64,000 nucleotides of DNA from Candidatus Eiseniibacteriota bacterium (lineage in GTDB: Bacteria > Orphanbacterota > Orphanbacteria > Orphanbacterales > Orphanbacteraceae), in assembly GCA_024276995.1 (NCBI GenBank), contig JAJRWB010000009.1, positions 1 through 64,000 on the forward strand, written 5' to 3'. A model generated the notes under the pieces. The model ran no database searches and was not told the DNA's origin. It worked only from the letters and a program-made list of their open reading frames with translations. Position 1 is the first letter of the stretch. Each line of letters opens with the position of its first letter. The translations under genes were made by a program, and so were the position numbers. Shown piece by piece: positions 10,314 to 55,665 of the stretch.

Positions 10314-10320
10314 AAAACTC

Positions 10321-11334: not shown

Positions 11335-11337
11335 GCG

Positions 11338-12666: not shown

Positions 12667-12668
12667 CG

Positions 12669-13337: not shown

Positions 13338-13945
13338 GCGGCCTCTATCGATTCAGCTGGACCGTTCTCCGGTTGCTCGCGCGGATCCTTTTCGGGTATC
13401 GCGTCCACGGCGACGGCAAGATCCCGCCGCGTGGCGCCTTCATCCTGGCGTCGAACCATGTCTCGTACGCCGACCCGATCGTCGCCGGCCTCGGCGTTCG
13501 ACGGGAACTCCACTTCCTCGCGAAGCGGGAGCTGTTCGCCATGCCGGTGATCCGCTGGTGGATCCGCCGGCACCACGCGATTCCCGTGAAACGGGGAGGA
13601 GTGGAGCGTTCCACGCTCCGCTTGGTGGCTTCGGTGCTCGCCGGCGGAGGGGCGCTGCTCCTCTTCCCCGAGGGGACGCGCTCGAGGGACGGCACGGTGG
13701 GCGCCCCCCAGCCCGGCGTCGGGATGATCGCCTCGAGAAACGCCGTCCCGATCTACCCGGTCTACGTTCGGGGGACCCGCGGGATCCTCCGTTCCCTCCT
13801 CCACAGGGGGCGGCTCGCCACGTTCATTGGCGAGTCGATCGATCCCGCCGGCTTCACCGGCGCCGACCGGAAGGAACTCTACCAGGCGATCGCCGTCGCC
13901 GTGGCGGACCGTGTCCGGAAGATGAGGGAACGCCACGAAGGATGA
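13334..13945 (+). CDS. plsC: 1-acyl-sn-glycerol-3-phosphate acyltransferase
   Basis: 203 residues. LPLAT fold with the catalytic NHVSYADP block (HX4D) near residue 39 and the glycerophosphate block LFPEGTRSRDG near residue 113. Makes phosphatidic acid at the inner membrane. GTG start overlaps the cmk stop. Length is somewhat short but both essential blocks are present. Confidence 0.9.
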   Translation: MSGLYRFSWTVLRLLARILFGYRVHGDGKIPPRGAFILASNHVSYADPIVAGLGVRRELHFLAKRELFAMPVIRWWIRRHHAIPVKRGGVERSTLRLVASVLAGGGALLLFPEGTRSRDGTVGAPQPGVGMIASRNAVPIYPVYVRGTRGILRSLLHRGRLATFIGESIDPAGFTGADRKELYQAIAVAVADRVRKMRERHEG

Positions 13946-13994
13946 TCCGGCCGGGGAAGGGTCGGCCCCCGGTTTCCTCTCCACTATTTTTCGG

Positions 13995-14024
13995 TTGTAA
14001 TCCCACCTCGTTCTTCCCTATTAT
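13995..14024 (+). promoter_or_regulatory. Candidate promoter of rpsA
   Basis: TTGTAA (13995-14000), 18-base spacer, TATTAT (14019-14024), leaving a leader of about 65 bases before the rpsA ATG with AAGGAGG near 14080. Confidence 0.4.
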
Positions 14025-14097
14025 GTAAGTTCGCGCTTTATGCGCGGCACGCCCTTTTCGAGGGCGAATCTTCGGGTTAAGGAGGATCAGGAGCAGC

Positions 14098-16008
14098 ATG
14101 GAGGAATCGAACAGGGAAGAGGTCCGCGAAGAGACGCCGGCCGTGACGGAAACGACGGGCGAAAGCGCCCCGGCCGGGGAGGCCCCTTCCGCGAAAGTGG
14201 AGACGGAAAAGCCGGTGAAGAAACCGCGGATCCGTCTCGTCAACGTGGACGAGGACGAGGAGGAGAACAAGGAACAGATCCAGGACATGCTCGATCTCTA
14301 CGAGGAATCGATGAAGGAGATCGAGGAGGGCCAGGTCGTTCCGGGAACGGTGCTCAGGGTCGGTGAGAACGAGGTTCTCGTCGACGTGGGATTCAAATCG
14401 GAAGGGGTGATCCCTCTCCATGAATTCCCCGAGCCGGTGAATATCCAGGTGGGCGAGAAGATCGACGTCTATCTCGAGCGGCTGGAGAACCAGGACGGCC
14501 TCGTGGTGCTTTCGAAGCAGCGCGCCGACTTCCTGAAGGTGTGGGGCGAAATCAAGGACGCCTACGACAGCGGCAACGTGGTGAACGGATGCGTCACCCG
14601 CCGGATCAAGGGAGGCCTCGTGGTCGACCTCTTCGGCGTGGAGGCGTTTCTTCCCGGGTCGCAGGTCGCTCTTCGCCAGGTTCCCAATCTCGACGATTTG
14701 ATCGGGGAAACTTTCCCATTCAAAATTATCAAGCTGAACAAGCGGCGCAGGAACATCGTCGTCTCCCGCCGCGTGGTTCTCGAGGAAGAGCGGAACGAGA
14801 AGAAGCAGGCGCTTATCAAGGAATTGGAGAAAGGCCAGATCCGCGAGGGTGTTGTGAAGAACATCACCGACTTCGGCGCTTTCGTCGATCTCGGAGGAAT
14901 CGACGGGCTTCTTCATATCACCGATATGTCGTGGGGACGGATCGGACATCCTTCCGAGGTGGTCACCATCGGGAGCACGATCAAGATCAAGATTCTCGAG
15001 TTCGACCGGGAAAGGGAAAGGATCTCCCTCGGTCTCAAGCAGATGACACCCTACCCGTGGGAGGACGTGGAGGAACGCTACCCGGTAAACACCCGCGTCA
15101 AGGGACGGGTCGTCTCGATCACCGATTACGGCGCCTTCGTGGAGCTGGAGAAGGGGATCGAAGGGCTGATCCATGTCTCGGAGATGTCGTGGACGAAACA
15201 TATCCGCCATCCCTCGAAGCTCCTGTCGGTGAACGACGAGGTCGAGGCGATGGTGCTCAAGGTGGACCGGGAGAACGAGAAGATCTCCCTCGGCCTGAAA
15301 CAGACCGAGCCCGATCCGTGGCTTTCCATCGATCAGCGTTACCCGGTCGGTTCCAAGTTCACCGGGAAGGTGAGAAACCTGACGAATTTCGGAGCCTTCG
15401 TCGAGCTCGAGGAGGGGATCGACGGGCTCGTTCATATCTCCGACATGTCGTGGACGAAGAGGATCAAGCACGCCAACGAAGTGGTCAAGAAGGGCGACGA
15501 CGTGGAAGTGATGGTGCTCAACATCGACAAGGAGAACCGCCGGATCTCTCTCGGCCTCAAGCAGGTGCAGAACGATCCGTGGGAAACCCTCGCCCATACG
15601 ATCCCCGAGGGGACCGCACTCGAAGGAGAGGTCATCAAGGTCGTCGACAGGGGTGTTGTGGTCGACGTGGGAGACGATCTGGAGGGGTTCGTTCCCCTCA
15701 ACCAGGTGACCGACGAGCTGGCGCGGAATAACTATGCCGCCCTCCAGCCGGGAACGAAGCTCTCGCTGCGCGTCGTGAGGATCGATCCGCAGAATCGGCG
15801 GATCGTACTCTCGGTGAAGGCGTTCTACGAGCAGGAGGAGGAGGACGAGGTCGCCCAGTATCACCGCCGCACGTCGGACAGCGGCAAGATCGCCCTTTCG
15901 GACATGGTCGACCTTTCGAAGGCGGTTTCTTCCGCGGCGGGAGAGACGGCGGACGAGGCGGACGGGTCGGAAAAGGATGGCGACGACGGGGAGAGCGAAT
16001 CGTCTTGA
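14098..16008 (+). CDS. rpsA: 30S ribosomal protein S1
   Basis: 636 residues. Six consecutive S1/OB-fold repeats between roughly residues 75 and 575; repeats 3-6 carry clear G-x-V-x3-DYGAFVEL type signatures (ITDFGAFVDL, ITDYGAFVELEKG, LTNFGAFVELEEG) and VSEMSW/ISDMSW ends. The N-terminal 70 and C-terminal 60 residues are acidic and low in complexity. Binds mRNA on the small subunit. Preceded by AAGGAGG. The stop overlaps the -35 element of the tRNA-Val promoter. Confidence 0.95.
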   Translation: MEESNREEVREETPAVTETTGESAPAGEAPSAKVETEKPVKKPRIRLVNVDEDEEENKEQIQDMLDLYEESMKEIEEGQVVPGTVLRVGENEVLVDVGFKSEGVIPLHEFPEPVNIQVGEKIDVYLERLENQDGLVVLSKQRADFLKVWGEIKDAYDSGNVVNGCVTRRIKGGLVVDLFGVEAFLPGSQVALRQVPNLDDLIGETFPFKIIKLNKRRRNIVVSRRVVLEEERNEKKQALIKELEKGQIREGVVKNITDFGAFVDLGGIDGLLHITDMSWGRIGHPSEVVTIGSTIKIKILEFDRERERISLGLKQMTPYPWEDVEERYPVNTRVKGRVVSITDYGAFVELEKGIEGLIHVSEMSWTKHIRHPSKLLSVNDEVEAMVLKVDRENEKISLGLKQTEPDPWLSIDQRYPVGSKFTGKVRNLTNFGAFVELEEGIDGLVHISDMSWTKRIKHANEVVKKGDDVEVMVLNIDKENRRISLGLKQVQNDPWETLAHTIPEGTALEGEVIKVVDRGVVVDVGDDLEGFVPLNQVTDELARNNYAALQPGTKLSLRVVRIDPQNRRIVLSVKAFYEQEEEDEVAQYHRRTSDSGKIALSDMVDLSKAVSSAAGETADEADGSEKDGDDGESESS

Positions 16009-28083: not shown

Positions 28084-29565
28084 ATGATCGTCCCTTCCTG
28101 GAAACGATTCCGGGAGATCGCCGGCAGGGGAAACCTCGTTCCCGTATATCGAGAGATCCTCGCCGACCTGGAAACGCCCGTGTCCGCCTTCCTGAAGCTC
28201 GGATCCCAGGGAATTTCATACCTTCTCGAGAGCGTCGAGGGATCGGAGAAGCTCGCGCGTTACTCGATCATCGGAATCGATCCGAAGATGGTCGTCCGTG
28301 CCTCGGGCGATGCCGTGGAAATCGAGAGGAGGAGCCGACCCCCGCGACGCAATAAGAGCACGGCGCCTCTGGGCGAGTTGGAAAAGCTCTTCCGCCAGAT
28401 CCGTCCGGTCGAAGTTCCCGGGCTTCCCCCTTTCTACGGAGGTGCCGTCGGGTTTCTCGGTTATGACATGGTGCGCCGCTTCGAGAGGCTTCTCTCCATC
28501 GCGGAAGACGACCTGAAGATCCCCGACCTCTTTTTCGTGTTCGCCGGAACGATTCTGGTATTCGACAACCTGACGCACAGCGTGAAGGTGGTCACCTACG
28601 CGAAAACGGACGGGCGGGCGAAGATCGACCGGGAGTATCGCGGGGCGATGGAGAGGATCGAGAAGGTGATCGCGCGGCTCCGGGAGCCGGTGGGAAGGCT
28701 AGTCTCCCCCGTGCCGGACGGGGCGCCCATCCGGTACAAGAGCACCTTGAGCCGTGAAGCGTTCTGCCGCCAGGTCCGGCGAATCAAGAAGTATATCCGC
28801 GAGGGGGACGTGTTCCAGACGGTGCTCGCCCAGCGGCTCGAGACGGTGCTCCGCTCGGAGCCGTTCGATGTCTACCGGGCGCTTCGCACGATCAACCCCT
28901 CGCCGTACATGTACTACCTGAACTACGGCGATCTGAAGGTGATCGGTTCGTCGCCCGAGGTTCTCGTGCGTGAATCGGCCGGACGACTCGAGCTGAGGCC
29001 GATCGCCGGGACACGGCCGCGGGGCAGGGATCCGATGGAAGATGAGGCGTTCGCCCGCGATCTTTTTTCGGACGAGAAGGAACTCGCCGAGCACGTGATG
29101 CTCGTCGATCTGGGGCGCAACGATCTCGGCAGGGTGAGCGAGTTCGGAACGGTGGTGACCGACGAACTGAAGGTTCTCGAGAAGTACTCCCACGTGATGC
29201 ATATCGTTTCGAATGTCACCGGCCGGCTCCGGGAAGGCCTTTCCCCGTTCGACGTGGTGCGCGCCTGTTTTCCCGCCGGCACCGTGTCGGGGGCGCCGAA
29301 GATACGGGCGATGGAGATCATCGAGGAACTCGAGCCGGTGCGGCGCGGCCTCTACGCCGGGGCGATCGGGTATTTCGGCTACGCGAAGAACATGGACATG
29401 TGCATCGGCATCCGGACGATCCTCGTGTCGGGGAGGCGTGCCTACATCGGCGCCGGCGCCGGCATCGTGGCCGATTCGGTGCCGGAACTCGAGTACCAGG
29501 AGACGCTGAACAAGGCGGACGCTCTGAAGCAGGCGATCGAAAAGGCGGCGCGGGGGCTGGTGTAG
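28084..29565 (+). CDS. trpE: Anthranilate synthase component I
   Basis: 493 residues from ATG 28084 (AGGAG 5 bases upstream); a GTG at 28048 is also in frame. The N-terminal tryptophan-site region carries LLESVEGSEKLARYSIIG. Chorismate-binding core: LRPIAGTRPRG, MLVDLGRNDLGRVS, PAGTVSGAPKIRAMEII and a C-terminal IGIRTILV block. Converts chorismate and ammonia (from TrpG) to anthranilate. It follows pgsA by 48 bases with no clear promoter, Trp-rich leader peptide or attenuator visible. Ends in TAG. Confidence 0.95.
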   Translation: MIVPSWKRFREIAGRGNLVPVYREILADLETPVSAFLKLGSQGISYLLESVEGSEKLARYSIIGIDPKMVVRASGDAVEIERRSRPPRRNKSTAPLGELEKLFRQIRPVEVPGLPPFYGGAVGFLGYDMVRRFERLLSIAEDDLKIPDLFFVFAGTILVFDNLTHSVKVVTYAKTDGRAKIDREYRGAMERIEKVIARLREPVGRLVSPVPDGAPIRYKSTLSREAFCRQVRRIKKYIREGDVFQTVLAQRLETVLRSEPFDVYRALRTINPSPYMYYLNYGDLKVIGSSPEVLVRESAGRLELRPIAGTRPRGRDPMEDEAFARDLFSDEKELAEHVMLVDLGRNDLGRVSEFGTVVTDELKVLEKYSHVMHIVSNVTGRLREGLSPFDVVRACFPAGTVSGAPKIRAMEIIEELEPVRRGLYAGAIGYFGYAKNMDMCIGIRTILVSGRRAYIGAGAGIVADSVPELEYQETLNKADALKQAIEKAARGLV

Positions 29566-42601: not shown

Positions 42602-44422
42602 TTATCTCGCGGCGGTGACGGCGATCCTCTTCGACCGCATGACGAGCCGGATCCGGCGCGTGTTCTGGTGGCGGAGGAGGTACTGGGATACCGGCTGAAG
42701 AACCATGCTCTCCACCGTGTGGGAGAGTTGTCTCGCCCCGGAAGAGCGGCTGCTTCCCTCGACCGACACGGCATCGATTACTTTCTGGGAAACGTCGAGG
42801 TGGATTCCCCGGGCTGTGAGTCTCGCCCGGATCTTTTCGATGGCGAGCGCGGCGATCTCCTGGACCGATTCGGGGGTGAGGGGGTCGAAATAGACGATCT
42901 CGTCGAAGGAAGCGAGGAAATCGGGGCCGAAGTACGCCTTCGTCGCCGCCTCGAGGGCGCGGCGCTGATTGGAAATCTTGTTTTTTTCGGTCGACTCGGT
43001 GAACCCCACGGGACGTTCCGGTTCATCGGTGGTGATGTTGTCCGAGTTGGCGATGATCACGAGCGTGGTGCTCGCGAAGGAGAGACGTCGTCCTTCGTCA
43101 TCCACCGTCTGTCCCTCGTTGAGAATCTGCATCAGAATCGGCCCTGCCTTGGGACTCGCCTTTTCGACACCGTTGATCACGAACACGGCGTTCGGCCTGT
43201 TTTCGAGAAGCCGCGACAACACCCCTTTCACAGGCCCCGCCATGCCCCGGCCGCCGAGAAGCTTCGTCGCCGCGTCCTCGTCGGAGAACTGTGCCATGTC
43301 GATGCGAAGGAGGTGTTCTTCGCTTCCGAACAGTTCCACCGCCAGCGATCGTGCCAGTTCCGTCTTGCCAACGCCGTTCGGGCCGACGAAGAGAAACACG
43401 CCGTCGGGCCGCCTCGGGTTGGGCGAAAGCCCCAGCTTCGCCACGCGCACCACGTTCGCCACCTGGCGGATCGCGGTGTCCTGTCCTTTGATCGTGCCTT
43501 TCAGTTTTTCCTCGAGATTGAGCAGCTCGCTTCCGGCACGATCGTGGAGTTTCGTCACCGGAATGCCGAGTCTCTTGCTCACCGTCTCTTCCACCGCGCT
43601 GGCGTCCACCGTCCGGGCGCGCCGCTTCCGGCCGCGCATCGACCGAACCACTTCCTCGGCGCATGCCTCGTCGAGGATCTCGAGTGCCTTGCCCGGGAGG
43701 ACCCTCGTTTTCAGGTAGTAATTCGATAGGTCGATCGCCTTGTCGACCGCTTTCTCGTCGATTTCGATCTGGTGGAAACTCTCCAGCTTCGCACGCACCA
43801 CCCGCAGGATCTTCTTCGCCATTTCCCGTGAAGGCTCGTGAACCGGCACCGGCACCATGTTGAAGCGGAGCCACTGGTGCTCGCTCACCAGCTTGCGGTG
43901 GGCCCAGTCGGACATCGAGGCGATCACCTGGAGATCGGGCTGCCTCGTCGTCGCCTCGATGATGTATGAAGCATCGAGAAGGCTCCCCTCTCCCGACCCG
44001 AGGAAATTGTCGAGCTGGTTGAAATAGAGGATCACGTCTTTCCGGTCGATCGCCTCCTTCACGGCGAGGAAGATCACCTTCTCGAACTCGTCGGTGTCCT
44101 GGATGAGGGGGAGAACGGAGGGGAGGGAGATTTCGAGAATCCTCCTGTTCCTCAATCGGGGCGGGACGCGTCCCGCGGCGATCTGCTCCGCCAGGCGGAG
44201 CACCATCGTTCGCTTTCCCACGCCTGTGGGGCCGAGGAGGAGGACGTTGTGGTTGCTCCGTTTCTGGAGCGTCTCGAGCAGCCGGCTCACTTCCTCCTTC
44301 CATGGAACGATCGAGCCGAAACGTCTTTCGAAGAGACTTTTGGACATATCAAGGGAGATCTGGTCGAGAATGGAGACTTCCTCCATCGGATGGTCTTCCG
44401 GCAGGCGGTTTGTGGAATCCAT
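42602..44422 (-). CDS. Clp-like double AAA+ protein with degenerate ATPase motifs
   Basis: 606 residues with the two-module order of ClpA/ClpC but no Clp-N domain. Module 1 keeps Walker A GPTGVGKR (64-71) but Walker B is ILYFNQLD (131-138), Asn-Gln in place of Asp-Glu. Module 2 keeps Walker A GPNGVGKT (347-354) but Walker B is VFVINGVEKA, with Asn-Gly for Asp-Glu; the pore motif GYVG is replaced (LGGRGMAGPV) and the Arg finger of PEFLNRID is Ser505 (PDFLASFDEI). ATP binding may remain; hydrolysis and threading seem unlikely. No ClpP-binding IGF/IGL loop is visible. A start at Met13 is possible. Function unknown: perhaps a scaffold or inactive partner. Confidence 0.85.
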   Translation of the reverse strand: MDSTNRLPEDHPMEEVSILDQISLDMSKSLFERRFGSIVPWKEEVSRLLETLQKRSNHNVLLLGPTGVGKRTMVLRLAEQIAAGRVPPRLRNRRILEISLPSVLPLIQDTDEFEKVIFLAVKEAIDRKDVILYFNQLDNFLGSGEGSLLDASYIIEATTRQPDLQVIASMSDWAHRKLVSEHQWLRFNMVPVPVHEPSREMAKKILRVVRAKLESFHQIEIDEKAVDKAIDLSNYYLKTRVLPGKALEILDEACAEEVVRSMRGRKRRARTVDASAVEETVSKRLGIPVTKLHDRAGSELLNLEEKLKGTIKGQDTAIRQVANVVRVAKLGLSPNPRRPDGVFLFVGPNGVGKTELARSLAVELFGSEEHLLRIDMAQFSDEDAATKLLGGRGMAGPVKGVLSRLLENRPNAVFVINGVEKASPKAGPILMQILNEGQTVDDEGRRLSFASTTLVIIANSDNITTDEPERPVGFTESTEKNKISNQRRALEAATKAYFGPDFLASFDEIVYFDPLTPESVQEIAALAIEKIRARLTARGIHLDVSQKVIDAVSVEGSSRSSGARQLSHTVESMVLQPVSQYLLRHQNTRRIRLVMRSKRIAVTAAR

Positions 44423-44747: not shown

Positions 44748-46514
44748 ATGAAGGGTCGAATCCGCCGCGTCATCACCGTCGCCGCCGTTCTCGCGCCGGC
44801 GCTGCTCGCATCGTGCGCGTCCGATGTTCTCGTGCGGCGGCAGAGCGATCCTCTTGACCAGCCGGTGGAGAACGTGGCGGTTCTCCTCTTCTTCCAGGAG
44901 GCGGAGGGTGCCCCCGAGGGGCTCGACGAGCTCGCCACCGATGCCTTCACCGTGCAGGTGCAGAAATACTTTCCCGCGCTGGTGAGCCGGTACGAAGTGC
45001 GCGATTTCCTCCGGCGGAACCGCTACACCCATGCCCTCTCTCCGGCGGTTCTGCGCGAGCTGGGCGAACAGCTTGGCGTCGACGGGCTCTTCGTCGGAAA
45101 GATCACCGGGTACAGCGAGAAGGAGAGCTTTCTCGGCTGGAACGGCAAGCCGCACTTCGAAATGGCGTGCCGTCTCCTTTCGACGAAAACGGGACGGGTT
45201 CTTCTCGCCGGCCAAGTGAACGTCGAGGGTAGCTACGTGATTCCGGTGAACTCCCGCGCGGATAGGGTTGTTTTTGGCGTAAAACTTTTGACGAAGAAGA
45301 TGGGCCTCTCCGAGCGGTTCGGCCTGAGGTACGTCACCCGCGACGATCCGATCTGGGCGCGGGCGATGCGTCACTACGAGAAGAAACAGTTCTGGGAGGC
45401 GGCGAGATACTTCGGGGCGATCGTCCACGACTACGCACCGAGCGATCTTCGCGACGAGGCGCAGTTCTACATGGGCCGCTCTCTCGACGAACTCTCCCTC
45501 GCCTCGGCGGCGTTGGAAATATACCGGTCGATCGAGAAAGGACCCTTCGCGGTACGCGCCCTGCTTCAGAGGATGGAGATCGCCTTCCGGGAGGAACGGG
45601 ACGCCGATCTTCTCGCCCTCGATCGTCGGATGAACGGCCAGTGGGCCGATCGATCCGAGAGCGAGGCGGCCCGCTATCTCGCGGGACTCTCGCTCCTGCG
45701 AACGGGCCGGGCCGACGAGGCGATCGCCCGTCTCGCCTCGGTGGGCGAAACGAGCCGGTGGTACCCATTCGCCCGGTGGTCTCTCGCCGACCCGCTCCTG
45801 GCGAAGGGGGACAGCGCCTGGGCGCGGCGGTCGCTCGAAGCGGTGGCCGCCATCAAGGGGGTCACCGAGTCGGAAAGACGTCTCCGGGAGAGGGCGTTCG
45901 TCACTCTGGGCGACTATCACTACGCCAGGGGCGACCGCGCCGAGGCGGAACGATGGTATGGCCTCGTGCGGGGGGAGTTCCTTCCCCGGGCGGCGCTCGG
46001 CTTGGCGTGGATCGCGGCGGAACGGGGCGATTACGAGGAGGCGATCGCCCATGCCGACGCCATGGGCGACGACGCCGATCCCCGCTGGGTCGGCGAGGCG
46101 CAACTCCTGGCGGGGACGTGCGAAGCGCGTCTCGCTCGGTTCGACCGTTCGGCGAAACGCCTCGAAACGGCGCTCGAGAAGTGTGAGCGATGGAAGGCGA
46201 GCGATGACGAGCAGGAGGCGGCAAGGCTCCGTGTCGCGTTGGCGCGACGTCGGATCGGCGTGGAGATCGGACCTATCGAAAGCGAGGTGATCGCCCTTCT
46301 CACGGGCGAACGGACGGAGGAGGAAGTCACCCGGCTCGACGAGCTGCACGACCGTTACGTCGAGATCGCCCGTCCCCTCGAGTCGCTCGAGCACCTCGCC
46401 GGCGCGGGACTCGACAGGGCGGAAGCGGAGAATCTGCGTGGTCGGATCCGGGAGAAGGCGGAGTTCTCCCTCGTCCAGGTACGATACGAACAAGAGAGGA
46501 TGGAGGAAAAATGA
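44748..46514 (+). CDS. TPR lipoprotein with CsgG/GNA1162-like N-terminal domain
   Basis: 588 residues. Lipoprotein signal with lipobox LLASC near residue 22. Residues ~40-190 form a CsgG-like alpha/beta domain (VENVAVLLFFQEAEG, LGEQLGVDGLFVGKITGYSE, RLLSTKTGRVLLAG). From ~200 on are TPR-like helical hairpins (MRHYEKKQFWEAARYFGAIV, LGDYHYARGDRAEAERWYG). Lys/Asp at +2 (CASD): Ala follows Cys, consistent with outer-membrane sorting. First gene of a nine-gene run; ATGA overlap with the next. May bind or assemble the envelope complex encoded downstream. Confidence 0.78.
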   Translation: MKGRIRRVITVAAVLAPALLASCASDVLVRRQSDPLDQPVENVAVLLFFQEAEGAPEGLDELATDAFTVQVQKYFPALVSRYEVRDFLRRNRYTHALSPAVLRELGEQLGVDGLFVGKITGYSEKESFLGWNGKPHFEMACRLLSTKTGRVLLAGQVNVEGSYVIPVNSRADRVVFGVKLLTKKMGLSERFGLRYVTRDDPIWARAMRHYEKKQFWEAARYFGAIVHDYAPSDLRDEAQFYMGRSLDELSLASAALEIYRSIEKGPFAVRALLQRMEIAFREERDADLLALDRRMNGQWADRSESEAARYLAGLSLLRTGRADEAIARLASVGETSRWYPFARWSLADPLLAKGDSAWARRSLEAVAAIKGVTESERRLRERAFVTLGDYHYARGDRAEAERWYGLVRGEFLPRAALGLAWIAAERGDYEEAIAHADAMGDDADPRWVGEAQLLAGTCEARLARFDRSAKRLETALEKCERWKASDDEQEAARLRVALARRRIGVEIGPIESEVIALLTGERTEEEVTRLDELHDRYVEIARPLESLEHLAGAGLDRAEAENLRGRIREKAEFSLVQVRYEQERMEEK

Positions 46515-47062
46515 TCGGCACCTCGACTTCGACGACCGGCGGCGGGTCTTCCCTGACGCTTCATACGCGAAATGCCGCCTTCTCCGTCGTGGTGATCGCG
46601 CTCTTTGCGGCGGCGCCCCGATTTTCCCCCGCGGCGGCGAGGGAGCCGTACATTCCCGACACGCTGATCTTCGCCGACTCGAGCGAACGGGAGGGGAGGA
46701 TCGTCTCGATCGACGGCGCCGACATCCAGTTTCAGGAGGATCCGAGGGGAAGGACGAAGTTGATCCCTCTCGCCGAGGTGAGAAGGATCGTGTGGGCCTC
46801 GGGGGGCGAGTCGCTTCATCCGGTGGTTCAAGATCCCCTCTCGGGCGAGATCCCCGGTTTCCGCAGGGCGCGATCCTCGGCCCGTTTCCGGAGGGACGAT
46901 CTCGAACTGAGCAGGGGGGAGGTGGCGTACAACGCCTTCGGCCGCGGGGTGATGGTCGGGGCGGTGGCGACGTTCTTCACCTCCGACGGGGACGAGAAGA
47001 AAGTCGCCTTCGCCGCGGGATTTCTCCTGCAGTTCGGGATTTCATTTTTCGCGGGGTGGTAG
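46511..47062 (+). CDS. Predicted membrane/exported protein of unknown function
   Basis: 183 residues. N-terminal hydrophobic stretch (AAFSVVVIALFAAAP) after ~20 polar residues, a small beta-rich part (REGRIVSIDGADIQFQED, TKLIPLAEVRRIVWASGG) that resembles SH3-like repeats seen in envelope proteins, and a C-terminal hydrophobic segment (VAFAAGFLLQFGISFFAGW). Not recognised further. ATG overlaps the upstream TPR lipoprotein gene; ends in TAG. Confidence 0.65.
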   Translation: MIGTSTSTTGGGSSLTLHTRNAAFSVVVIALFAAAPRFSPAAAREPYIPDTLIFADSSEREGRIVSIDGADIQFQEDPRGRTKLIPLAEVRRIVWASGGESLHPVVQDPLSGEIPGFRRARSSARFRRDDLELSRGEVAYNAFGRGVMVGAVATFFTSDGDEKKVAFAAGFLLQFGISFFAGW

Positions 47063-47075
47063 GGAAGTGCCGATC

Positions 47076-47672
47076 ATGAGCAGGAGAATCGATTCTCATA
47101 TAAATCGGATCGTTTCGTCGATCGTGGCGCCGGCCGTCATGATCATACTATCCGGCTGTACCGGGTCGACCGGCCATGTGCCCTTGCATGTCGATTCGCC
47201 CGGCGGTTTCGGCGTCCTTCCCTTCGAGGACCGTAGCGGGAGCACCGACGCGACGCTCGGCTCCCAGGTGGCGCACCAGTTCGCGTCCCGCCTCGCCGCC
47301 GGCGCGTTCGATGTCATCGATCCGCGCCAGATCGATGCGCTCTTCGCCGAGGCGGGAATGGAGCTTCCCGATCGATTCGATGCGCGGGCACGCGAGATGA
47401 TCCGAACCGTGACCGGGTGCGACATGGTCGTCACCGGGGTGATCACCGACGTGGTTCCGGGGGACGGTTTCAACGCTCCGAAGGCGGTGATCTCGATCCG
47501 ACTCGTCGATCTCGAGAGTGGGTATACCGTCTACTCCCTCGGCAGGTCGTATCCCGGCGGAGTGGGAAACCGACTCGGCGGCGATACCGACCGGCTCGTT
47601 CTCGACTGCGCCGATTACCTGGCGGACCGGATGAGTCTCGACGTGGCGCGCCGGGAGGGGTCGGACGAATGA
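47076..47672 (+). CDS. CsgG-like outer-membrane lipoprotein
   Basis: 198 residues from ATG 47076 (AGGGAAG 8 bases upstream). Signal sequence with lipobox LSGC near residue 27; a CsgG/GNA1162-type fold: GFGVLPFEDRSGSTDATLGSQVAHQFASRL, FDVIDPRQIDALFAEAG, TGCDMVVTGVITDVV, ISIRLVDLESGYTVYS. Related domains polymerise or scaffold at the outer membrane. ATGA overlap with the large TPR gene. Confidence 0.78.
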   Translation: MSRRIDSHINRIVSSIVAPAVMIILSGCTGSTGHVPLHVDSPGGFGVLPFEDRSGSTDATLGSQVAHQFASRLAAGAFDVIDPRQIDALFAEAGMELPDRFDARAREMIRTVTGCDMVVTGVITDVVPGDGFNAPKAVISIRLVDLESGYTVYSLGRSYPGGVGNRLGGDTDRLVLDCADYLADRMSLDVARREGSDE

Positions 47673-50600
47673 CGGGAATCCTATCCGCGGCGCTCCTCCT
47701 GGCGGCGGCGTGCTTCGCCGGGCCGGTGCGGGCTTCGAATGATTCGGGCGGGTTCGAAGACGAGTCGATTCGCCGCTTCGAAGCGCTCCTGGAGCGATAT
47801 CCCCGGAGCGAAATGCGCGCCCCCGTTCTCGTGCTTCTCGGAAATCTCTATATGGAAACGGAAAAGGAGCGATACCTCTCCGGGGTGGTTCGCTACGAGG
47901 ACGGCGAAAGCGACGTGGAGCCGGTTCTCGACTACTCAAAGGCGATCGGCGCCTTCCGCGAGGTGATTCGCGACTATCCCGCGTATGCCGGGAGGGCCGA
48001 GGCGATATTCGCGCTGGCGGTCTGCCTTGAGGAGTCGGGCGACGAGTCGGGCGCGGTGGATGCCTATCGGCAGGTGATCGAGGCGGTCCCGGCAAAGAGC
48101 CCGGTCGGCGGTGAGGCGGCCATGCGCGTTGCCGACATCGAGTTTCTCCACGAACGATGGGGAAGCGCGCTCGAAGCGTACGAGCGGGCCGTGGCCCTCG
48201 GTGTGGACGCCGAATCGGGAAAGCTCGACTACAAGATCGGCTGGTGTCACCTCAAGCGGAATGAACTGACGGAGGCGCGCGAGCGGTTCCAGGCATGCGC
48301 GGACCGGACATGGGCCGCCGATGCCCGCGGCGCCGGGCGGGAGGACCTGACCGAATTGCTCCGGTCGCTCGCCCTCGTTCAGGCGGAAACCGATCCCGCC
48401 GGAATCGATCGGTACGCCTCCCGTTTCGAGGACCGCCTCTATCGCCGGGCGGCGCTCGTGGAACTGGGGGAAGTCCTCCTCGATCAGGATCGGCCCGTCG
48501 AGGCGGAAGAGGCGTTCCGTTCGGCTCTTGGTATCGACGGTACGGCCGACGACGCGCCCGAGCTGCGCGACAGGGTGATCGAGTGCCTCGTGTCGCGCGA
48601 CGAGAAGGAGGCGGCCGGCCGAGAGATGGAGCGTTTCTGCGCGTTGTTCGGACCGGGGAGCGAATGGCGGCTTTCGAGACGACTCGACGCCGACCGTTCC
48701 ACCGCGCTGGCGCAGAGGCTGCGGCGAAACGCGTGGAACGGCGCCCTTCTCCGGTACCGGACGGGCGGCGAAAAGGACTGGCCGGTGGCGGCGGCGCTTT
48801 TCGAGTCGTACATCGACGAGCTGGGCGGCGACGTGCAACTGGAGCGGGCGAGACTTTTCGCCGCCGAATCGTGGTACAGAAGCGGCCGGTTCGACAGGAG
48901 TGCGGACGACTACGACGCCATCGACCCGGCGGGGCTCGAAACCGATGAAGAGAGAACGATGGCGCTGCGCGGCTCGTTTCTCGCCCATCGAGACGGCGGA
49001 GCGGGGGGGGGATCTCGCCGCCGCGGCGCTGCGCTGGTTCGACGACCGCCCCGGCGACGACGAGAGTCGCAAGGCGGTTCTCCTGGCGGCGGAACGGCTC
49101 GAGTCGGAGGGCGATCTCGACAGGGCGCTCGACCTCTGTTTCCGTGTCGGACAGTCGGAGGGGGGAACACTCCGGGGCGAGGCGGCGGTGCGCGCCGGAA
49201 AAATCGCTTCAGCAATGAAGGACTATTCCGCCGCCGAGGAGTGGTTCCTCCGGGCGGCGGACGCGACCGGCGATCCGGCGGAGCGAAAGGGGAGAATCGA
49301 ACGGGCCGCCGCCGGATCGTTCCTGCATGCCCGGGAGGCGGAGGAACGCGAATCGTGGGACGAAGCGGCCGACCGTTATGCGAGGACCGCTTCGGAGTAC
49401 GATTCGACATCCGTCGCTGTCGATGCGATCCGCGCCGAGCTTCGCTGCCGGACGGCGGGCGACGACGCGGAGAGGGCGATCGCCGTCGCCGCCGCGCTTT
49501 CCGCGCGGACGGCGGGCGACACCCTTTCCGCCGATGCGGTCCGGTTCGCCGCCGCCCGGTTCGCCGAGAGGGGAAATCACGGGGAGGCGGGCGATCTTCT
49601 TCAGATCGCCTTTTCGATCGCCCAGCGTCCCGCCGATCTCCTCGCCGGTGCCGCCGAGTACGAAGCGGCCGGCGCCGTCCCCGAGGCGGACGGTCTTCTC
49701 ACCGAGCTGACGGAGCGCTTCGCCCGCCATGAGGCGGCGGCGGAAGGGGCGTTCCGTCTCGCCATGATCCGGTTGAAGCAGGAGCGTTACGATGAGGCGG
49801 CCTCCTGGTTCGACCGTTCCCTAGCCTCCGGCGCTTCACCCGGCGTCTCGGCCGCACAGGTCCGTTTTCACGAGGGAGAAGCCCGCCTCGCCGCCGGTGA
49901 TTCGGCCGCCGCCGCCGCCGTATTCCACAAGGCGGCCGCCGCCGGGGAAGGCGCGACCGGCCGAGCGGAGTGGTATGCCGCGCGCGCCCACTTCGCCGCG
50001 GCGGCGATCGCCCGCGGCGCCCTCGACCGCGCGATTGCCGCGTGGCGCCGTGGCGAGAGGCGTGAAGGTCCGGCCGATCTACTCGCGTCCTACGTCGAGG
50101 ATCTCCGGAAGGGAATCGCGGCGCGCTTCGAGAACATCACCACCGGGCCGATGATCGAACTCGCCGGCGCGCTCGAGCTGTACGGCCGAACCGCCCACCT
50201 TCGCGAGTGGGAGAGGGGAAACATCCCTTCGGCCGGCCTCGTGGAGCCCTACTTCTCCGACGCCGCGGCACTTTACGCGTCGGCCGGGGCGACGGGCCGA
50301 CCGGGCGCGAATCCGTACGCTTCCCTCGCCGACACGCTGGTCCGCTTCGGCGAGGAGGAATTGGAGCGCAACGCGCCGCCCGCCGCCGCCGACATCGACA
50401 CATCCGTCGCCGGGTGGTTCGACGCCCACTCCGACGCGCTTTCACGCCGGCTGCTCGCCACCGAAAGAGCCGACGCGCTGTGGAGCACCGCCATGGAGCT
50501 GTACGAAATGCAAGAGAGCGGACCGGCCGTGACGGAGTGGAACGGCCGCGCCGGTGTTTCGGTCGCCCTTCGCGGGGCGGAAGCGAATCACGCCGCCGCG

Positions 50601-50816
50601 GCGCTCCTTCGCGAGGCCCCCCTTCCTCCGTCGGCGAGCGAGGAGGAACGGCGGCTGTACGGCGACCTTCTCCGGGAGAAGGCGGCGTCGTACGAAGAGC
50701 GCGCCGCCGCCTGGATAGAAAAAATCGAGGAGGCGACCGCCGGTGATGCCGTCCGGTCTCTCTCGCAGCGTCTTCTTTCCGTGGAGAACGGGAACGGCGA
50801 AGGAAGGGAACGATGA
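47669..50816 (+). pseudogene. Very large exported TPR protein, frame broken at a G9 run
   Basis: About 1,048 residues if the frames are joined. Signal peptide ILSAALLLAAACFAGPVRAS, then 20 or more helical-hairpin repeats (LERYPRSEMRAPVLVLLGNLYM, AIGAFREVIRDYPAYAGRAE, AADRYARTASEYDST) of the TPR/Sel1 kind. Frame one is coding-like up to FLAHRDGGAG; frame two becomes coding-like at DLAAAALRWFDDRPG. The switch sits on nine Gs at 49013-49021; eight Gs would make one open frame. So this is homopolymer error, slippage-based phase variation or a recent frameshift. The tail overlaps the next gene by ATGA. Likely the periplasmic body of the ExbBD-driven machine. Confidence 0.82.
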
Positions 50817-51091
50817 AAAGAATATCGGTTCTTCTTCTTCTCCTCGTCGTCGCGGCGGCCGGCGCCGCGGCCGGTGAGAAGCCGAAGAGGCAGATCGTGA
50901 ATCTGAAGAAGATGAACATCGAGGGGACCGTACCCGATCCCGCTACGATGTTTATACGTGAAAGACAACCGGGCGGTCTGCTCGAACTGTTTCCCTTGAA
51001 AAGAGAACTCCGGGAGGAGTGGCTTCTCCCGGTGATCAAGGGAAACTTCGATCGGGCGACCGTGGAACTCGTGGACGGAAGGAAGAGGTGA
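50813..51091 (+). CDS. Small exported protein of the ExbBD operon
   Basis: 92 residues. Signal peptide ISVLLLLLVVAAAGAAAGE, then a short conserved-looking body (IVNLKKMNIEGTVPDPATMFI, LFPLKRELREEWLLPVIKG). No lipobox. Unknown family; short proteins of this shape occur beside AgmX/ExbB-type clusters of gliding bacteria, a recollection rather than a search result. ATG overlaps the TPR stop; 4 bases before exbB. Confidence 0.7.
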   Translation: MKRISVLLLLLVVAAAGAAAGEKPKRQIVNLKKMNIEGTVPDPATMFIRERQPGGLLELFPLKRELREEWLLPVIKGNFDRATVELVDGRKR

Positions 51092-51095
51092 GGTC

Positions 51096-52061
51096 ATGAC
51101 CAGGAATAGGCTGAATCGATCGATCCCGCCGGTGGCGCTCTTGATACTGGCGCTCACGGCGATCTGCCCCCCGCCCACCGCCGCCCAGGCGGCGGACGAC
51201 AACGGGGTCGCCCCGGGCGCGGCGAACGCAGCGGCCGTCGAATCGGGGCCTGTGGCCGGCGGCGTGTCCCCTTTCGCCGTGGTGGAGGCAGTTCCCGCTA
51301 AGGGCGCCGTGGCGATCATGCCGTGGGATAGGCTTCTCCGGTTCGCCGCCGGCGCCTTCTCCGGGGCGGGCGCGCCCTTCATGTGGGCGATTCTGATGGT
51401 CAGCGCCTTCGCGACCACCGTGGGACTCGAAAAGATCCATTTCCTCACGGTCCGTACCGGACGGGGGGGGGGCGAGCGTTTCTTCGACGAGGTGTGCCGT
51501 CTCGTCCGGGACAGGAGGATCGAAGAGGCGCGCAGCCTAGCCGCCGGCAGCGACACGCCGTTCGGCAGGATGGTGAACCGGATCCTCGGCATCCGGCACG
51601 GTCACAGGCGCGACGAGATGCAAAGCCGCCTCGATGAGGCGTACTTGAAGGAGATTCCCGCGTATCACAGGAGACTTCCTCTCCTGGCGGTGTGCGCGAA
51701 TCTCGCCACCCTTCTCGGTCTCCTCGGAACGATCGCCGGGCTGATCATCGCTTTCGAGGCGGTGGCGACCGTGGCGGCGGCGCAGCGGACCGCCGCCTTG
51801 GCAGGGGGAATCTCCGTTGCGATGGCCACCACCGGATTCGGCCTTCTCGTGGCGATTCCGACGCTCGCCCTCCACGGCATTCTCGGCGCGCGCGCCGACC
51901 GGGCGGTGGAGGAGATCGAGGCGAAGCTCGCGTCGCTCACCTCCCTGATGGAGGAGTGGAACCGGAAACTCCAGATCGATCCGTACGAGGGAGAGGAACG
52001 GAGAGGCCGCGGCGCGGAAGAGAAGATCGCCGAGTTCGCCACGGCGGGAGACGCCCAATGA
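51096..52061 (+). CDS. exbB: MotA/TolQ/ExbB proton-channel protein with signal peptide
   Basis: 321 residues. A cleavable signal peptide and ~60-residue periplasmic spacer precede the first helix (MWAILMVSAFATTVGLEKI); after a cytoplasmic loop come two helices with LLGLLGTIAGLIIAFEAV and GGISVAMATTGFGLLVAIPTLAL, the ExbB/TolQ signatures. Forms the ring around an ExbD pair and conducts protons. A G10 run at 51463-51472 is in frame. ATGA overlap with the first exbD. Confidence 0.88.
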   Translation: MTRNRLNRSIPPVALLILALTAICPPPTAAQAADDNGVAPGAANAAAVESGPVAGGVSPFAVVEAVPAKGAVAIMPWDRLLRFAAGAFSGAGAPFMWAILMVSAFATTVGLEKIHFLTVRTGRGGGERFFDEVCRLVRDRRIEEARSLAAGSDTPFGRMVNRILGIRHGHRRDEMQSRLDEAYLKEIPAYHRRLPLLAVCANLATLLGLLGTIAGLIIAFEAVATVAAAQRTAALAGGISVAMATTGFGLLVAIPTLALHGILGARADRAVEEIEAKLASLTSLMEEWNRKLQIDPYEGEERRGRGAEEKIAEFATAGDAQ

Positions 52062-52555
52062 GACCGGGACGTTCTTCGACGTCGCGGCGCGGGATCGAGG
52101 GAAACGACCTCGACATGGTGCCCATGATGAACCTGTTCACCGTGCTCGTCCCCATTCTTCTCCTGGCGGCGGTCTTCGCCCGGGTGAGCGTTCTCGACCT
52201 CGCCCTTCCCCCGAAGGGAAGCGGCGAAACGGGCCGAAGCGTCCACGAGGAGAAATCGCCGCTCAACCTGGTGGTGGTGGTGTCCCGCGAGGGGATCACC
52301 GTGGGCGGAACGGGCGGTTTTCTTCCCTCGGTGACCGACCGGGACGAGAAACTCCGGTTCGACGCATTCGCGCTCCTTCTCGACAGGGTGCGCGGCGAAT
52401 ACCCGGATGAGAGCAGCGTCACCGTCGCCTCCGACGGCGGCGTAGCATACGAGGATGTTTTGAAAGTGATGGACATCTGCAGGGATCGCGGGTTCCGCGA
52501 GATCGCGTTGAGCGCTCTTCACGACGTCCGGTCGTCCGGCGGGGGGGAGGGATGA
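52058..52555 (+). CDS. exbD: ExbD/TolR-like protein 1, channel Asp replaced by Asn
   Basis: 165 residues. Short cytoplasmic tail, one membrane helix (MNLFTVLVPILLLAAVFA), periplasmic peptidoglycan-type domain (VTVASDGGVAYEDVLKVMDICRD). In the family the helix begins PLIDvvfvLL with a proton-carrying Asp; here it reads PMMNLFTVL, Asn25. This subunit probably cannot be protonated. One base separates it from the second exbD. Confidence 0.82.
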   Translation: MRPGRSSTSRRGIEGNDLDMVPMMNLFTVLVPILLLAAVFARVSVLDLALPPKGSGETGRSVHEEKSPLNLVVVVSREGITVGGTGGFLPSVTDRDEKLRFDAFALLLDRVRGEYPDESSVTVASDGGVAYEDVLKVMDICRDRGFREIALSALHDVRSSGGGEG

Positions 52556-52556
52556 G

Positions 52557-53033
52557 ATGAAACCGACCCGACCGAGAAGAAGGGGGCGGAGTGGCGGCGC
52601 CGTCCTCACAGTGACTTCCCTTGTGGATATTCTTTCCATACTGCTCATATTCCTGCTCCTCTCGTTCTCACCGGAAGGGGCTCTTCTCCAGGCGGCGCAG
52701 GATCTCGAGCTTCCCGAAACGACGTCGCGTGAAAGCGTCGATCGAAGCGATCGCGTCATCGCCGTCACCGGCCGCGCGATCACTGTGGGGGAGAAGGTGG
52801 CGGCCCGTCTCGACGGCTGGGATGGCTCCGTGCCGATCGCCGGTCTCGCCGCACTGCTCGGCGATGTCTCCTCGACGCCCGAGGCCGACCGGCGGGTGCT
52901 GATCGAAGGAGACCGGCGGATACCGTTCGACCTTCTCTACGCCGTTCTTTTCACCAGCCACCAGGCGGGCTACAGGAACCTCGCTCTAGCGGCGTACGAA
53001 CGGCCGGCGGGGGAGGAAGGAGGCGCACCATGA
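52557..53033 (+). CDS. exbD: ExbD/TolR-like protein 2, channel Asp kept
   Basis: 158 residues. Helix LTVTSLVDILSILLIFLLLSF keeps the family Asp (Asp24). The periplasmic domain (VLIEGDRRIPFDLLYAVLFTSHQAGY) is ordinary. Probably pairs with the Asn-bearing ExbD in one ExbB ring. ATGA overlap with the AgmX-like gene. Confidence 0.85.
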   Translation: MKPTRPRRRGRSGGAVLTVTSLVDILSILLIFLLLSFSPEGALLQAAQDLELPETTSRESVDRSDRVIAVTGRAITVGEKVAARLDGWDGSVPIAGLAALLGDVSSTPEADRRVLIEGDRRIPFDLLYAVLFTSHQAGYRNLALAAYERPAGEEGGAP

Positions 53034-53977
53034 AGAGCGCAAACGGGCCGGGAGAGACATCGATTCTCCGAAGAGTCGCCGCCGCGTCGATCGGCGCTCA
53101 CCTCCTCTTCGGCCTCGGTATCGCCACGGTCGAACTCCAACCCCTGGTCACCCCCGGTGTCTGGGCGGTGGAGGAAGCACCGCCGGTGGAGGTTATCCTC
53201 TCGATGGAAGCGCCCGTTTTCAGTAAGACGGCGCCTCCGCCGGTGCGCCAAGCATCTCCCGTTCCGGCGGGGATGAAGAAGGGGATGCGATCTGCGAAAG
53301 TCGAAGCGGGGAAGAAGTCGGGTGGGGGCGGGGGGGATCCCCTCCGGAGAGTAACCCGCCTCGGCGTTCTCGGCCGGCTCGCGACCGCCTCTTCCGGAAG
53401 TCGCGTGACCGCCGAGCGGAAGGGGACGCTCTACGCAAGCGACGGCATGACGCAGCTCCTACGCGGCGTGGGGGAAACGCGCCGCGTGACCGGTCCCGCG
53501 TCGAAAGGAGAATCGGGCATCGGCTTCGGTTCGGGTGTGGGGAGCGGTTTCGGTGGGGGCACGGCGAAACAGGAGGCGGAAGAACTGGTCGCCTCCCTCG
53601 GGGACGGCAGCGGCGAAAAGCTCGTGCTCGAGCGGCGCGAAGGGGTGATCGACGGTACCGGGTTCTCCTTCGAAGGAGCCGACGGTTGTCGGGATGAAAC
53701 GGAGATCGCCCGGATCGTCCTGAGTCACAAGGGGGGGATTCGCGGCTGCTACAACAGGACCCTCAGGCGCACCCCGGGTGGGAAGGGAGAGATCGCCGTG
53801 CGCTTCCTCATTTCCACCGGGGGGGACGTGACCGGCGCGGAGGTGATCTCCAGCACCGTCGGCGATCCCGGTCTCGAGGAGTGCGTCCTCGAGAGGATCG
53901 GGAAGTGGACGTTCCCGGCCGAACCCGATTGCGAAACGGTTGTGCGCTACTCGTTCCATTTCACATCCGACCTGTAG
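53030..53977 (+). CDS. AgmX/PglI C-terminal-domain (TonB-like) energy transducer
   Basis: 315 residues. An N-terminal membrane helix (RVAAASIGAHLLFGLGIATVEL), a basic Gly/Lys-rich linker, a Gly-rich patch (GFGSGVGSGFGGG) and the C-terminal AgmX/PglI domain: IARIVLSHKGGIRGCYNRTLRR, GEIAVRFLISTGGDVTGAEV, ERIGKWTFPAEP. This domain is a relative of TonB C-termini known from Myxococcus gliding motility proteins. It should span the periplasm and pass ExbBD energy to outer-membrane partners. Ends in TAG. Confidence 0.85.
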   Translation: MKSANGPGETSILRRVAAASIGAHLLFGLGIATVELQPLVTPGVWAVEEAPPVEVILSMEAPVFSKTAPPPVRQASPVPAGMKKGMRSAKVEAGKKSGGGGGDPLRRVTRLGVLGRLATASSGSRVTAERKGTLYASDGMTQLLRGVGETRRVTGPASKGESGIGFGSGVGSGFGGGTAKQEAEELVASLGDGSGEKLVLERREGVIDGTGFSFEGADGCRDETEIARIVLSHKGGIRGCYNRTLRRTPGGKGEIAVRFLISTGGDVTGAEVISSTVGDPGLEECVLERIGKWTFPAEPDCETVVRYSFHFTSDL

Positions 53978-54087: not shown

Positions 54088-55665
54088 CTACGCCGGTCCG
54101 CTCCGATTCTTCCCGGTCACGGGAAAGCGCATCAGAAAAGCGGCCCCCTTTCCGGGCTCGCTCTTCACATCGATCGATCCGCCGTGGGCTTCCACGATGC
54201 CGTGCGCGATGCTCAAGCCGAGCCCCGTTCCGCCGGTGTTCGTTTTCGTGGTGAAAAAGGGATCGAACAGCTTCTTGATTACGTCCGGCTCGATACCGGA
54301 GCCGTCGTCGGTTACGGTGATGACGAGGTGATCGTCTTCCTGTTCGAGTCCCACCGCGACGTTCCCGCCCGGGCTGCACGCGTCGATCGAGTTCTGCAGC
54401 AGGTTGGTCACCGCCCGCTCGAGGCCGATCCCGTCGCCGTCGATGGAGGGGACCGGTCCGTTCACTTCGAGAGAGAGGGCGACGTCCTTCGCGGCGGCGC
54501 TCTCCCGGACGCTTCGCAGGGCGAGGCGAACGACCGGGTCGACGTCGAGCCGGCTTCTCACGGCGCCCGCACTATTCGAAAAGCGGAGAACACTCTGCAC
54601 GATGCGCGTGCATCGGCTGCACTGCTCGATGATTTCTCCGAGCGCCGCCGTTCTCTTCTCGCGGCCGGCAGGGTCATCCTTCATCCGCAGCGCCGTCTGT
54701 GCGTACAGGAGGATCGCCCCGATCGGGTTGTTGATCTCGTGGGCGATTCCCGCGGCGAGCGTCCCGAGCGAGGCGAGCCGCTCGGCACGGTTCAGCTTCT
54801 CCTCCGACCGGAGGAGTGCGGATGTCCTCTCCCGCACCAGTTCCTCCAAGTGCGCCCTGTAGCTTTCCAATTCCGATTCCGCCTTCTTCCGCTGCGTGAT
54901 GTTGCGGCAGTTGATCACCATCCCCTCCACGCCCGGCGCGTCGGGCATGTGGACGAACAGTCCCTCGAGGAAGATGTAATGCCCCCGCCTGTGGCGCACG
55001 CGGAACGAGTCGAGACGGTTCGCCTTCCCCGGCTTCCCCCGGGTGGCGGCGAGGGAGCGGTTGACCTTGGCCAGATCGTCCGGGTGAACAAACGCCGCCG
55101 GTCTCCGCCCAAGTATTTCATGTACGGCATAGCCGCCGATCCGCATGGCGGACGGACTGACGTAGCGGGCGACCCCGGAGGAATCGAGAATGAGCGTGAT
55201 GTCGGTGGAGTTCTCCGTGATGGCGCGGAATCTCTCCTCGCTTTCGCGAAGCGCCTCGAGAGCTTCGTTCTTCTGGCGAATCAACTCCCATTCGCGGAGC
55301 GCCGATTCCGCTGTGTAGGGCATGTGGATGAAGGTGGATTCCGACTTCACCACATAGTCGATGGCGCCCGCCTTGATCGCCTCCACCGCGACCTGCTCGT
55401 CACCGTGGCTCGTCATGATCACCACCGGGATCGGCGGGGGAGCGGCGGTGTCTTCGAAAAGGTCGGTCCCCCGGCCGTCGGGGAGGACGAGATCGACGAT
55501 CGCCATGTCCGGGAGTTCGGTGCCGAGCATGAAGCGCGCTTCCGCCAGTGTCGATGCCGTGCGGACGACGACCGGCATGCGCGCACCGTCGAAAGCCCGG
55601 CGGATCAGCCCCGCGTGGGCGCGGTCGTCCTCCACGAGGAGGATCGTCTTCTCGCCGGTGCTCAC
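54088..55665 (-). CDS. Hybrid sensor histidine kinase, REC-PAS-HisKA-HATPase
   Basis: 525 residues, soluble. N-terminal receiver (TILLVEDDRAHAGLIRRAF, AIVDLVLPDGRG with Asp, PVVIMTSHGDE, DYVVKSE), PAS domain (~130-260), HisKA with the phosphorylated His in AAGIAHEINNPIGAILL, and HATPase with LLQNSIDACSPGG, DDGSGIEPDV and GGTGLGLSIAHGI. An inverted order: the receiver comes first, so it likely takes its signal from an upstream kinase. ATGA overlap with the response regulator gene upstream on the same strand. Confidence 0.93.
   Translation of the reverse strand: MSTGEKTILLVEDDRAHAGLIRRAFDGARMPVVVRTASTLAEARFMLGTELPDMAIVDLVLPDGRGTDLFEDTAAPPPIPVVIMTSHGDEQVAVEAIKAGAIDYVVKSESTFIHMPYTAESALREWELIRQKNEALEALRESEERFRAITENSTDITLILDSSGVARYVSPSAMRIGGYAVHEILGRRPAAFVHPDDLAKVNRSLAATRGKPGKANRLDSFRVRHRRGHYIFLEGLFVHMPDAPGVEGMVINCRNITQRKKAESELESYRAHLEELVRERTSALLRSEEKLNRAERLASLGTLAAGIAHEINNPIGAILLYAQTALRMKDDPAGREKRTAALGEIIEQCSRCTRIVQSVLRFSNSAGAVRSRLDVDPVVRLALRSVRESAAAKDVALSLEVNGPVPSIDGDGIGLERAVTNLLQNSIDACSPGGNVAVGLEQEDDHLVITVTDDGSGIEPDVIKKLFDPFFTTKTNTGGTGLGLSIAHGIVEAHGGSIDVKSEPGKGAAFLMRFPVTGKNRSGPA

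Follow-up and report, generated by a model that had tools for sequence, protein, structure and literature searches.

Nine genes on the forward strand (44748-53977) of a stretch of 64,000 nucleotides from Candidatus Eiseniibacteriota bacterium (contig JAJRWB010000009.1, positions 1 to 64,000; hereafter the window) probably encode a variant, particular to its lineage, of the Agl-Glt core complex. This proton-driven machine spans the cell envelope and belongs to the gliding apparatus of Myxococcus. According to Luciano et al. (2011), this core consists of GltC, GltD, GltE, GltG, AglR, AglQ and AglS, and it is clustered in a single region or operon in non-Deltaproteobacteria that do not glide, including Fibrobacter (PMC3169522). 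Our assignment draws on gene order, homology, motor phylogeny, protein folds and an Asp/Asn asymmetry between the two ExbD proteins of the operon, all established by computation. A first-pass annotation made from the sequence had inferred a machine that links an inner-membrane motor to two outer-membrane lipoproteins through a TPR body. With a TonB-like transducer included, this architecture is still the best reading, but the machine has a name, since its gene order is that of the Agl-Glt core.

We compared the motor proteins with those of known systems in two trees. Among 69 ExbDs, which included E. coli TolR and ExbD and three paralogues of the window's own genome, all first ExbDs of such operons (ExbD-A), AglQ of the genome G034 among them, formed one clade (support 100/98) and all second ExbDs (ExbD-B), with AglS of G034, formed another (99/93), while the E. 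coli proteins and the three paralogues made up a third group (98/90). In the tree of 33 ExbBs, the 27 proteins of the system, including window g6 and AglR, fell into one group (100/99). Both trees thus put the window motor together with AglRQS in a single kind, separate from the Tol and Ton motors. G034 (9 Mb) is regarded as Myxococcus-like because its GltC (1060 bits, cut-off 450) and GltG (1033 bits, cut-off 650) exceed the NCBIfam equivalog cut-offs; its locus L073 encodes ExbB, ExbD and ExbD, and the two ExbDs have 162 and 194 residues, as do AglQ and AglS (PMC3169522). PDB sequence searches returned only TolQ and ExbB for the window ExbB and no match for ExbD-A.

Tol-Pal and TonB-ExbB-ExbD resemble the window in having a 5:2-type motor driven by the proton-motive force (PMF) and a TonB/TolA-like transducer, but they contain a single kind of ExbD/TolR with Asp, keep a ring Glu discussed below and work with TolB/Pal or receptor partners. 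The operon holds no TolB, Pal, CpoB or TonB-dependent receptor, and its motor lies outside both the TolQ/TolR and the ExbB/ExbD clade, so that the first-pass annotation was right to exclude Tol-Pal and TonB uptake. If the operon stood in for Tol-Pal in envelope integrity and division, this would suit its TPR protein, its motor resembling TolQR and its TonB/TolA-like transducer, which bears SxxxH. We nevertheless regard this reading as highly improbable in view of the missing TolB and Pal, the separate motor clade and the absence of any AgmX-domain protein from G002, a relative of the same family whose genome is 95% complete, which makes the system dispensable in the phylum. An energiser of TonB-type uptake serving a receptor encoded elsewhere is also very unlikely. 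It would account for the SxxxH helix and the TonB_C-like domain of g9 (25.8 bits, cut-off 24.6), and one locus (L023, G051:C211:60000-78000, 7750-14431) does combine a 1013-residue TPR protein and a receptor-like outer-membrane protein with ExbB, ExbD and TonB. However, the ExbB of L023 falls outside the Agl-type clade, and the constant neighbours of core operons include no receptor, the constant partners being TPR scaffolds and two ExbDs.

The gene content of the operon agrees in part with its assignment to the Agl-Glt core. ExbB and both ExbDs exceeded the Pfam cut-offs, and g9 scored 83.6 bits (cut-off 40) against the NCBIfam model of the AgmX/PglI C-terminal domain (NF033768), in line with the families named in the first-pass annotation. 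Like the Agl-Glt core, the operon comprises an AglR-type ExbB followed by AglQ- and AglS-type ExbDs, and an AgmX/TonB_C transducer, in one operon as in the core of non-Deltaproteobacteria; its giant TPR protein, its TPR protein at the outer membrane and its small secreted protein are the putative counterparts of GltD, GltC and GltF. Unlike it, the operon adds g2 and g3, and its g1 carries a PelC/CsgG-fold N-terminal domain. The first-pass annotation had missed the match of the order to a named system. This match is not one for one: GltE is lacking, and neither g2 nor g3 has a counterpart. The transmembrane helix of g9 contains a TonB/TolA-type SxxxH motif in the window and its relatives, which is not general, as a crude scan found it in 22 of 100 AgmX proteins. 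Gene clusters of the PVC group are alike in having a TolQ-like gene, two unlike tolR-like genes and a TPR gene, but the tip of their transducer is formed by a vWA domain, where the window has AgmX/TonB_C (PMC12204202).

The first-pass annotation had proposed a search for the same gene order across genomes, and this search was positive. Our sample of the phylum consisted of seven genomes from one family; g1 was present in six of these, the full g1-g9 order recurred in three other genomes (G004, G005 and G001; g1 identity 46-52%), and G003 and G006 had parts of it where their contigs end. The order is thus more than a chance arrangement, and the possibility that the operon is unique to its contig was rejected. 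Across the domain, the ExbD-B profile had relatives in 81 of 386 genomes, and many families from many phyla shared a core order of g1-like TPR protein, giant TPR protein (about 950-1600 residues), secreted protein of about 100 residues, ExbB, ExbD, ExbD and AgmX, often with a further protein of 300-410 residues that is GltE-like by place. A further 80 loci were obtained by scanning named genomes; they span KSB1, Calditrichota, Nitrospinota, Deltaproteobacteria/Myxococcota, Fibrobacterota (Chitinivibrionales, Chitinispirillales), Raymondbacteria, Fermentibacteria/Fermentibacterota and others. Where the contig of a named locus left room for the neighbour in question, ExbB adjoined in 75 of 76 cases and AgmX in 72 of 76, a giant TPR gene lay upstream in 62 of 62, and a g1-like TPR gene was present in 51 of 55. 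Two relatives of the same family also carry a second, divergent Agl-Glt-like core operon (L057, G001:C4, 5723-14472; L058, G004:C20, 6834-15719) with the order TPR of 1.6k residues, lipoprotein, g5-like protein, ExbB, ExbD, ExbD, AgmX and likewise an Asn in ExbD-A; an operon of this type was not seen in the window's genome. That genome encodes a separate ExbB with two ExbDs elsewhere (L013, G000:C75:78000-95000, 7224-8994), and the ExbD read there keeps the Asp.

The two ExbDs of the window differ at the site where ExbD/TolR proteins bind protons through an Asp: ExbD-A has Asn25 there, and ExbD-B keeps Asp24. This asymmetry, which the first-pass annotation had missed, recurred in nearly all of the related motors. 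Among 111 non-redundant pairs, ExbD-B had Asp without exception (111/111), while ExbD-A had Asn in 96, Ser in 5, Gly in 4, Asp in 4 and Cys in 1, one further sequence being truncated, which gives a non-Asp ExbD-A in 106 of 110 scored motors. The context identifies this site in ExbD-A without ambiguity, since a Pro that precedes it by three residues is usually retained (P-x-M-N). At 55 loci found without a DNA pattern, ExbD-B again had Asp in 55 of 55 cases, and the ExbD-A residues were Asn (34), Gly (8), Ser (6) and Asp (6), with one gap. The four non-redundant ExbD-A proteins with Asp belong to two loci of the Myxococcus-type genome G034 and to two loci of one other family.

A second difference concerns the ring. 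Both lumen Thr residues of ExbB were kept in all 109 proteins scored (109/109), as they are in window g6, and therefore the rings look functional. The Glu equivalent to E176 of E. coli ExbB is Val in g6 and was absent from every one of the 105 loci with an ExbB and a non-Asp ExbD-A. It was present in both G034 loci, in which ExbD-A has Asp; the other two Asp loci have Met. As controls, E. coli TolQ, E. coli ExbB and three of four other paralogues had the Glu, the fourth having Gln. The window thus departs from the Myxococcus-type motor both in the Asn of its ExbD-A, where AglQ has Asp, and in its ring without Glu.

In a review of 5:2 motors from 2022, AglQ and AglS were both predicted to have the Asp, and the choice between homo- and heterodimers was left undecided; the same review notes that an Asp-to-Asn exchange mimics the protonated state in MotB (PMC9389320). 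In Myxococcus xanthus, the conserved proton site of AglQ was reported to be essential (PMC9120999). Within the library searched, the literature on AglQ/AglS heterodimers and on two ExbDs with asparagine gave no account of the Asp/Asn split. It is this one-Asp signature of the motor, present in the window as well, that adds to existing knowledge. We speculate, at about even odds, that these proteins constitute a widespread, undescribed subclass of 5:2 proton motors with an obligate heterodimer axle (5:1:1) and a single proton-carrying Asp, in which the conserved Asn of the partner would mimic a permanently protonated Asp and the ring would do without the partner Glu; AglRQS of Myxococcus, with its two Asp, would then be the exception.

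A number of points weigh against these interpretations. With regard to the motor, the search pattern itself builds in the Asp of ExbD-B for the 80 named loci, the sampling is weighted towards KSB1, and the losses of Glu and Asp partly reflect shared descent instead of 105 independent events, although the pattern still spans many phyla; the name AglRQS was assigned to the G034 proteins from models and lengths. With regard to the Agl-Glt core, GltE is missing, as there is no gene between g4 and g5 and none of the nine proteins matches a GltE model. The g1 protein scored 23.8 bits against the GltC model (cut-off 450), with no GltC match in its genome (G000), so that its putative equation with GltC relies on position and weak profile similarity. 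The g4 profile matched the giant TPR protein of the Myxococcus-type glt cluster at 7.8e-51, but TPRs match each other generally and such similarity is easily convergent; in addition, g4 carries a frameshift in this assembly. The g9 protein has no FHA domain match and reached 62 bits against the GltG equivalog model (cut-off 650). Finally, GltJ is missing, since the genome encodes a single AgmX-domain protein. This last point bears on a rival reading, namely that the organism glides as Myxococcus does. Its motor and AgmX transducer are of the Agl-Glt kind, but gliding is unlikely without GltJ and because the gliding-specific Group A genes are limited to Myxococcales and Bdellovibrionales, while the core is also found in non-gliders (PMC3169522).

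Both lipoprotein genes show a lipobox (LLASC in g1, ILSGC in g3), as had been noticed in the first-pass annotation, which called both proteins CsgG-like. Sequence models do not bear out this name, as Pfam CsgG had no match in the window and g3 gave sub-threshold matches to FlgO and LpoB; the fold of g3 does. Its model (predicted local distance difference test (pLDDT) 75, with 83 residues at 90 or above) had its best Foldseek matches in GNA1162 (9e-9), PelC (9e-8), FlgT (2.6e-6) and CsgG (3e-5), with further matches to the TolB N-domain and LpoB. For g1 (pLDDT 83.9), the whole-protein Foldseek search was swamped by TPR structures, and the N-terminal domain was therefore compared with g3 by hhalign, which gave a probability of 91.6%; its topology is E-H-H-H-E-E-E-H, the same as in g3, and topology and hhalign are what its fold assignment draws on. 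A scan of genome contigs with the single g1 protein gave no match, and the profile of a Fibrobacterota protein at the g1 position matched g1 of the relatives at 1e-15 to 1e-17. Above its cut-off, Pfam CsgG matched only two open frames in the window's own genome, about 5 kb apart on contig C72 (L001/L002, G000:C72:24118-24363 and 29019-29288).

These folds raise the question of a PMF-driven exporter, in which g1 and g3 would form PelC/CsgG-like outer-membrane rings and the motor would open them or drive the export of a polymer or protein. The match of g3 to the PelC dodecamer and to CsgG, and the shared topology of the g1 N-domain, would suit such a role. However, the same fold is common to the non-pore proteins TolB (N-domain), LpoB, GNA1162 and FlgT, the g3 model appears to lack the barrel-forming insertion of the CsgG type, the operon contains neither a synthase nor an export channel gene, and related operons do without g2 and g3, which renders an exporter improbable. 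The small exported protein g2 is kept in four related loci (L017, L018, L019 and L020) and was found in 0 of 79 named loci; both g2 and g3, inserted between g1 and g4, were lacking from all examined loci outside this phylum.

The small secreted protein g5 is probably GltF-like and belongs to a family whose motif, I-x-G-x-[VIL]-x-x-P-x-x-x-[FY]-I, was found in about 49 loci. A profile of this family built from loci of other phyla matched window g5 at 1.5e-4 (hhalign 93%) and, at 1e-16, a 91-residue protein that sits directly before the GltG-like gene of a Myxococcus-type glt cluster (L181); its match to GltF of the main glt cluster was weak (0.12). If g5 is GltF-like, proteins of this kind would be far wider spread than the Group A status assigned to GltF in 2011 implies.

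The gene for the giant TPR protein, g4, is not one open frame in this assembly. The frame starting at 47669 ends at a stop at 49732, and the other half is encoded by the frame 48900-50816. The codon-position G+C content switches at about 49,000, and an alignment with four relatives placed the frame change at a run of nine G (49003-49011). The counterpart is a single frame of 1055-1103 residues in L017, L018, L019 and L020, for which reason two separate genes were rejected; the TPR protein of about 1,050 residues given in the first-pass annotation, which missed the frameshift, accordingly holds for the relatives and is split into two half-frames here. An assembly or sequencing indel would be the simplest explanation, and a true frameshift may be the alternative. 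A second run of ten G (51463-51472) lies within the ExbB gene and leaves its frame unchanged.

Genes of the operon and its flanks. Positions are those of the window.
Gene	Position	Strand	Description
upstream	42602-44422	-	double AAA+ ClpB-like gene
g1	44748..46514	+	lipoprotein; N-terminal CsgG/PelC-like domain (~40-190), C-terminal TPR repeats; GltC-like position
g2	46511..47062	+	small exported protein without known family; no Pfam or NCBIfam match
g3	47076..47672	+	small lipoprotein, PelC/GNA1162/CsgG/LpoB fold; alternative GTG start at 47067
g4	47669..50816	+	giant periplasmic TPR protein, GltD-like by position; frameshifted within or beside the G9 run 49003-49011
g5	50813..51091	+	92-residue secreted protein, probably of a GltF-like family
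g6	51096..52061	+	ExbB/AglR-like ring subunit; Pfam MotA_ExbB 4.7e-25
g7	52058..52555	+	ExbD-A, AglQ-like; Pfam ExbD 1.4e-17; Asn25 (codon AAC at 52130)
g8	52557..53033	+	ExbD-B, AglS-like; Pfam ExbD 7.2e-12; Asp24 (codon GAT at 52626)
g9	53030..53977	+	TonB/GltG-like transducer: transmembrane helix with SxxxH, Gly-rich linker, AgmX/PglI C-terminal domain
downstream	54088-55665	-	hybrid histidine kinase, with receiver and PAS domains

The nine genes lie as close together as the first-pass annotation had described, with ends that overlap by 4 bases (g1/g2, g3/g4, g4/g5, g6/g7 and g8/g9) or sit within 14 bases of each other (gaps of 4-13 bases for g2-g3, 4 bases for g5-g6 and 1 base for g7-g8). 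Its limits are set by two genes of the opposite strand, of which the upstream one is divergent and the downstream one convergent. At the place of the ClpB-like gene, L017 has a gene of similar length with the same domains, and L019 and L020 have genes there that were likened to it by length.

From these parts we infer a working model for complex formation, stoichiometry, force path and surface cargo. A g6 pentamer would enclose a heterodimer of g7 and g8, which we favour because a g7 homodimer would have no proton site. Protons would pass only via Asp24 of g8, whose protonation would drive movement between ring and axle, and g7 would be a structural partner with a permanent Asn at the proton position; the axle would be attached to peptidoglycan by its periplasmic domains, as TolR is. 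The SxxxH helix of g9 would pass the motion between ring and axle on to the AgmX/TonB-like tip of that protein, which would reach the outer membrane and cyclically pull the partners there. These would be the probably GltF-like g5, g4 as a giant TPR scaffold, and two lipoproteins, g1 and g3, with their PelC/CsgG-fold domains of a ring-forming type. The output would be mechanical, in that outer-membrane-anchored structures such as adhesins, surface polymer or enzyme complexes would be moved, tensioned or spread, as opposed to nutrient import.

Mechanical handling of surface-anchored structures is our best guess for the function of the window operon because of three precedents. AglRQS is proposed in reviews to pull outer-membrane partners through GltG/GltJ (PMC9389320, PMC5349195), and Agl-Nfs moves spore-coat polymer in Myxococcus (PMC5349195). 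In Fibrobacter succinogenes, FSU_2396-2403 (OmpA, TPR, TPR, ExbB, ExbD, ExbD, TonB) is up-regulated on cellulose, and its OmpA (FSU_2396) and TPR (FSU_2397) proteins were found in a complex that also contains cellulases and a fibro-slime protein (PMC6851124). The window shares the order TPR, giant TPR, ExbB, ExbD, ExbD, TonB/AgmX with this cluster and with a look-alike in G095 (L022), which was likened to the FSU cluster by gene order. The ExbD-A of L022 is also non-Asp (Gly). Unlike the window, L022 has an OmpA gene upstream and no g2, g3 or recognised g5, and its g1 counterpart has, instead of a PelC/CsgG-fold lipoprotein, an N-terminal stretch of about 330 residues without Pfam match that looks like an outer-membrane barrel.

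Our data imply that the Agl-Glt core, as an envelope machine, reaches far past the gliding myxobacteria and is widespread among uncultured bacteria. The one-Asp signature makes the choice between homo- and heterodimer testable. If both halves of the axle share one motor, one proton site per axle must suffice, and such a one-site axle, if true, would bear on the need for two alternating Asp sites in rotation.

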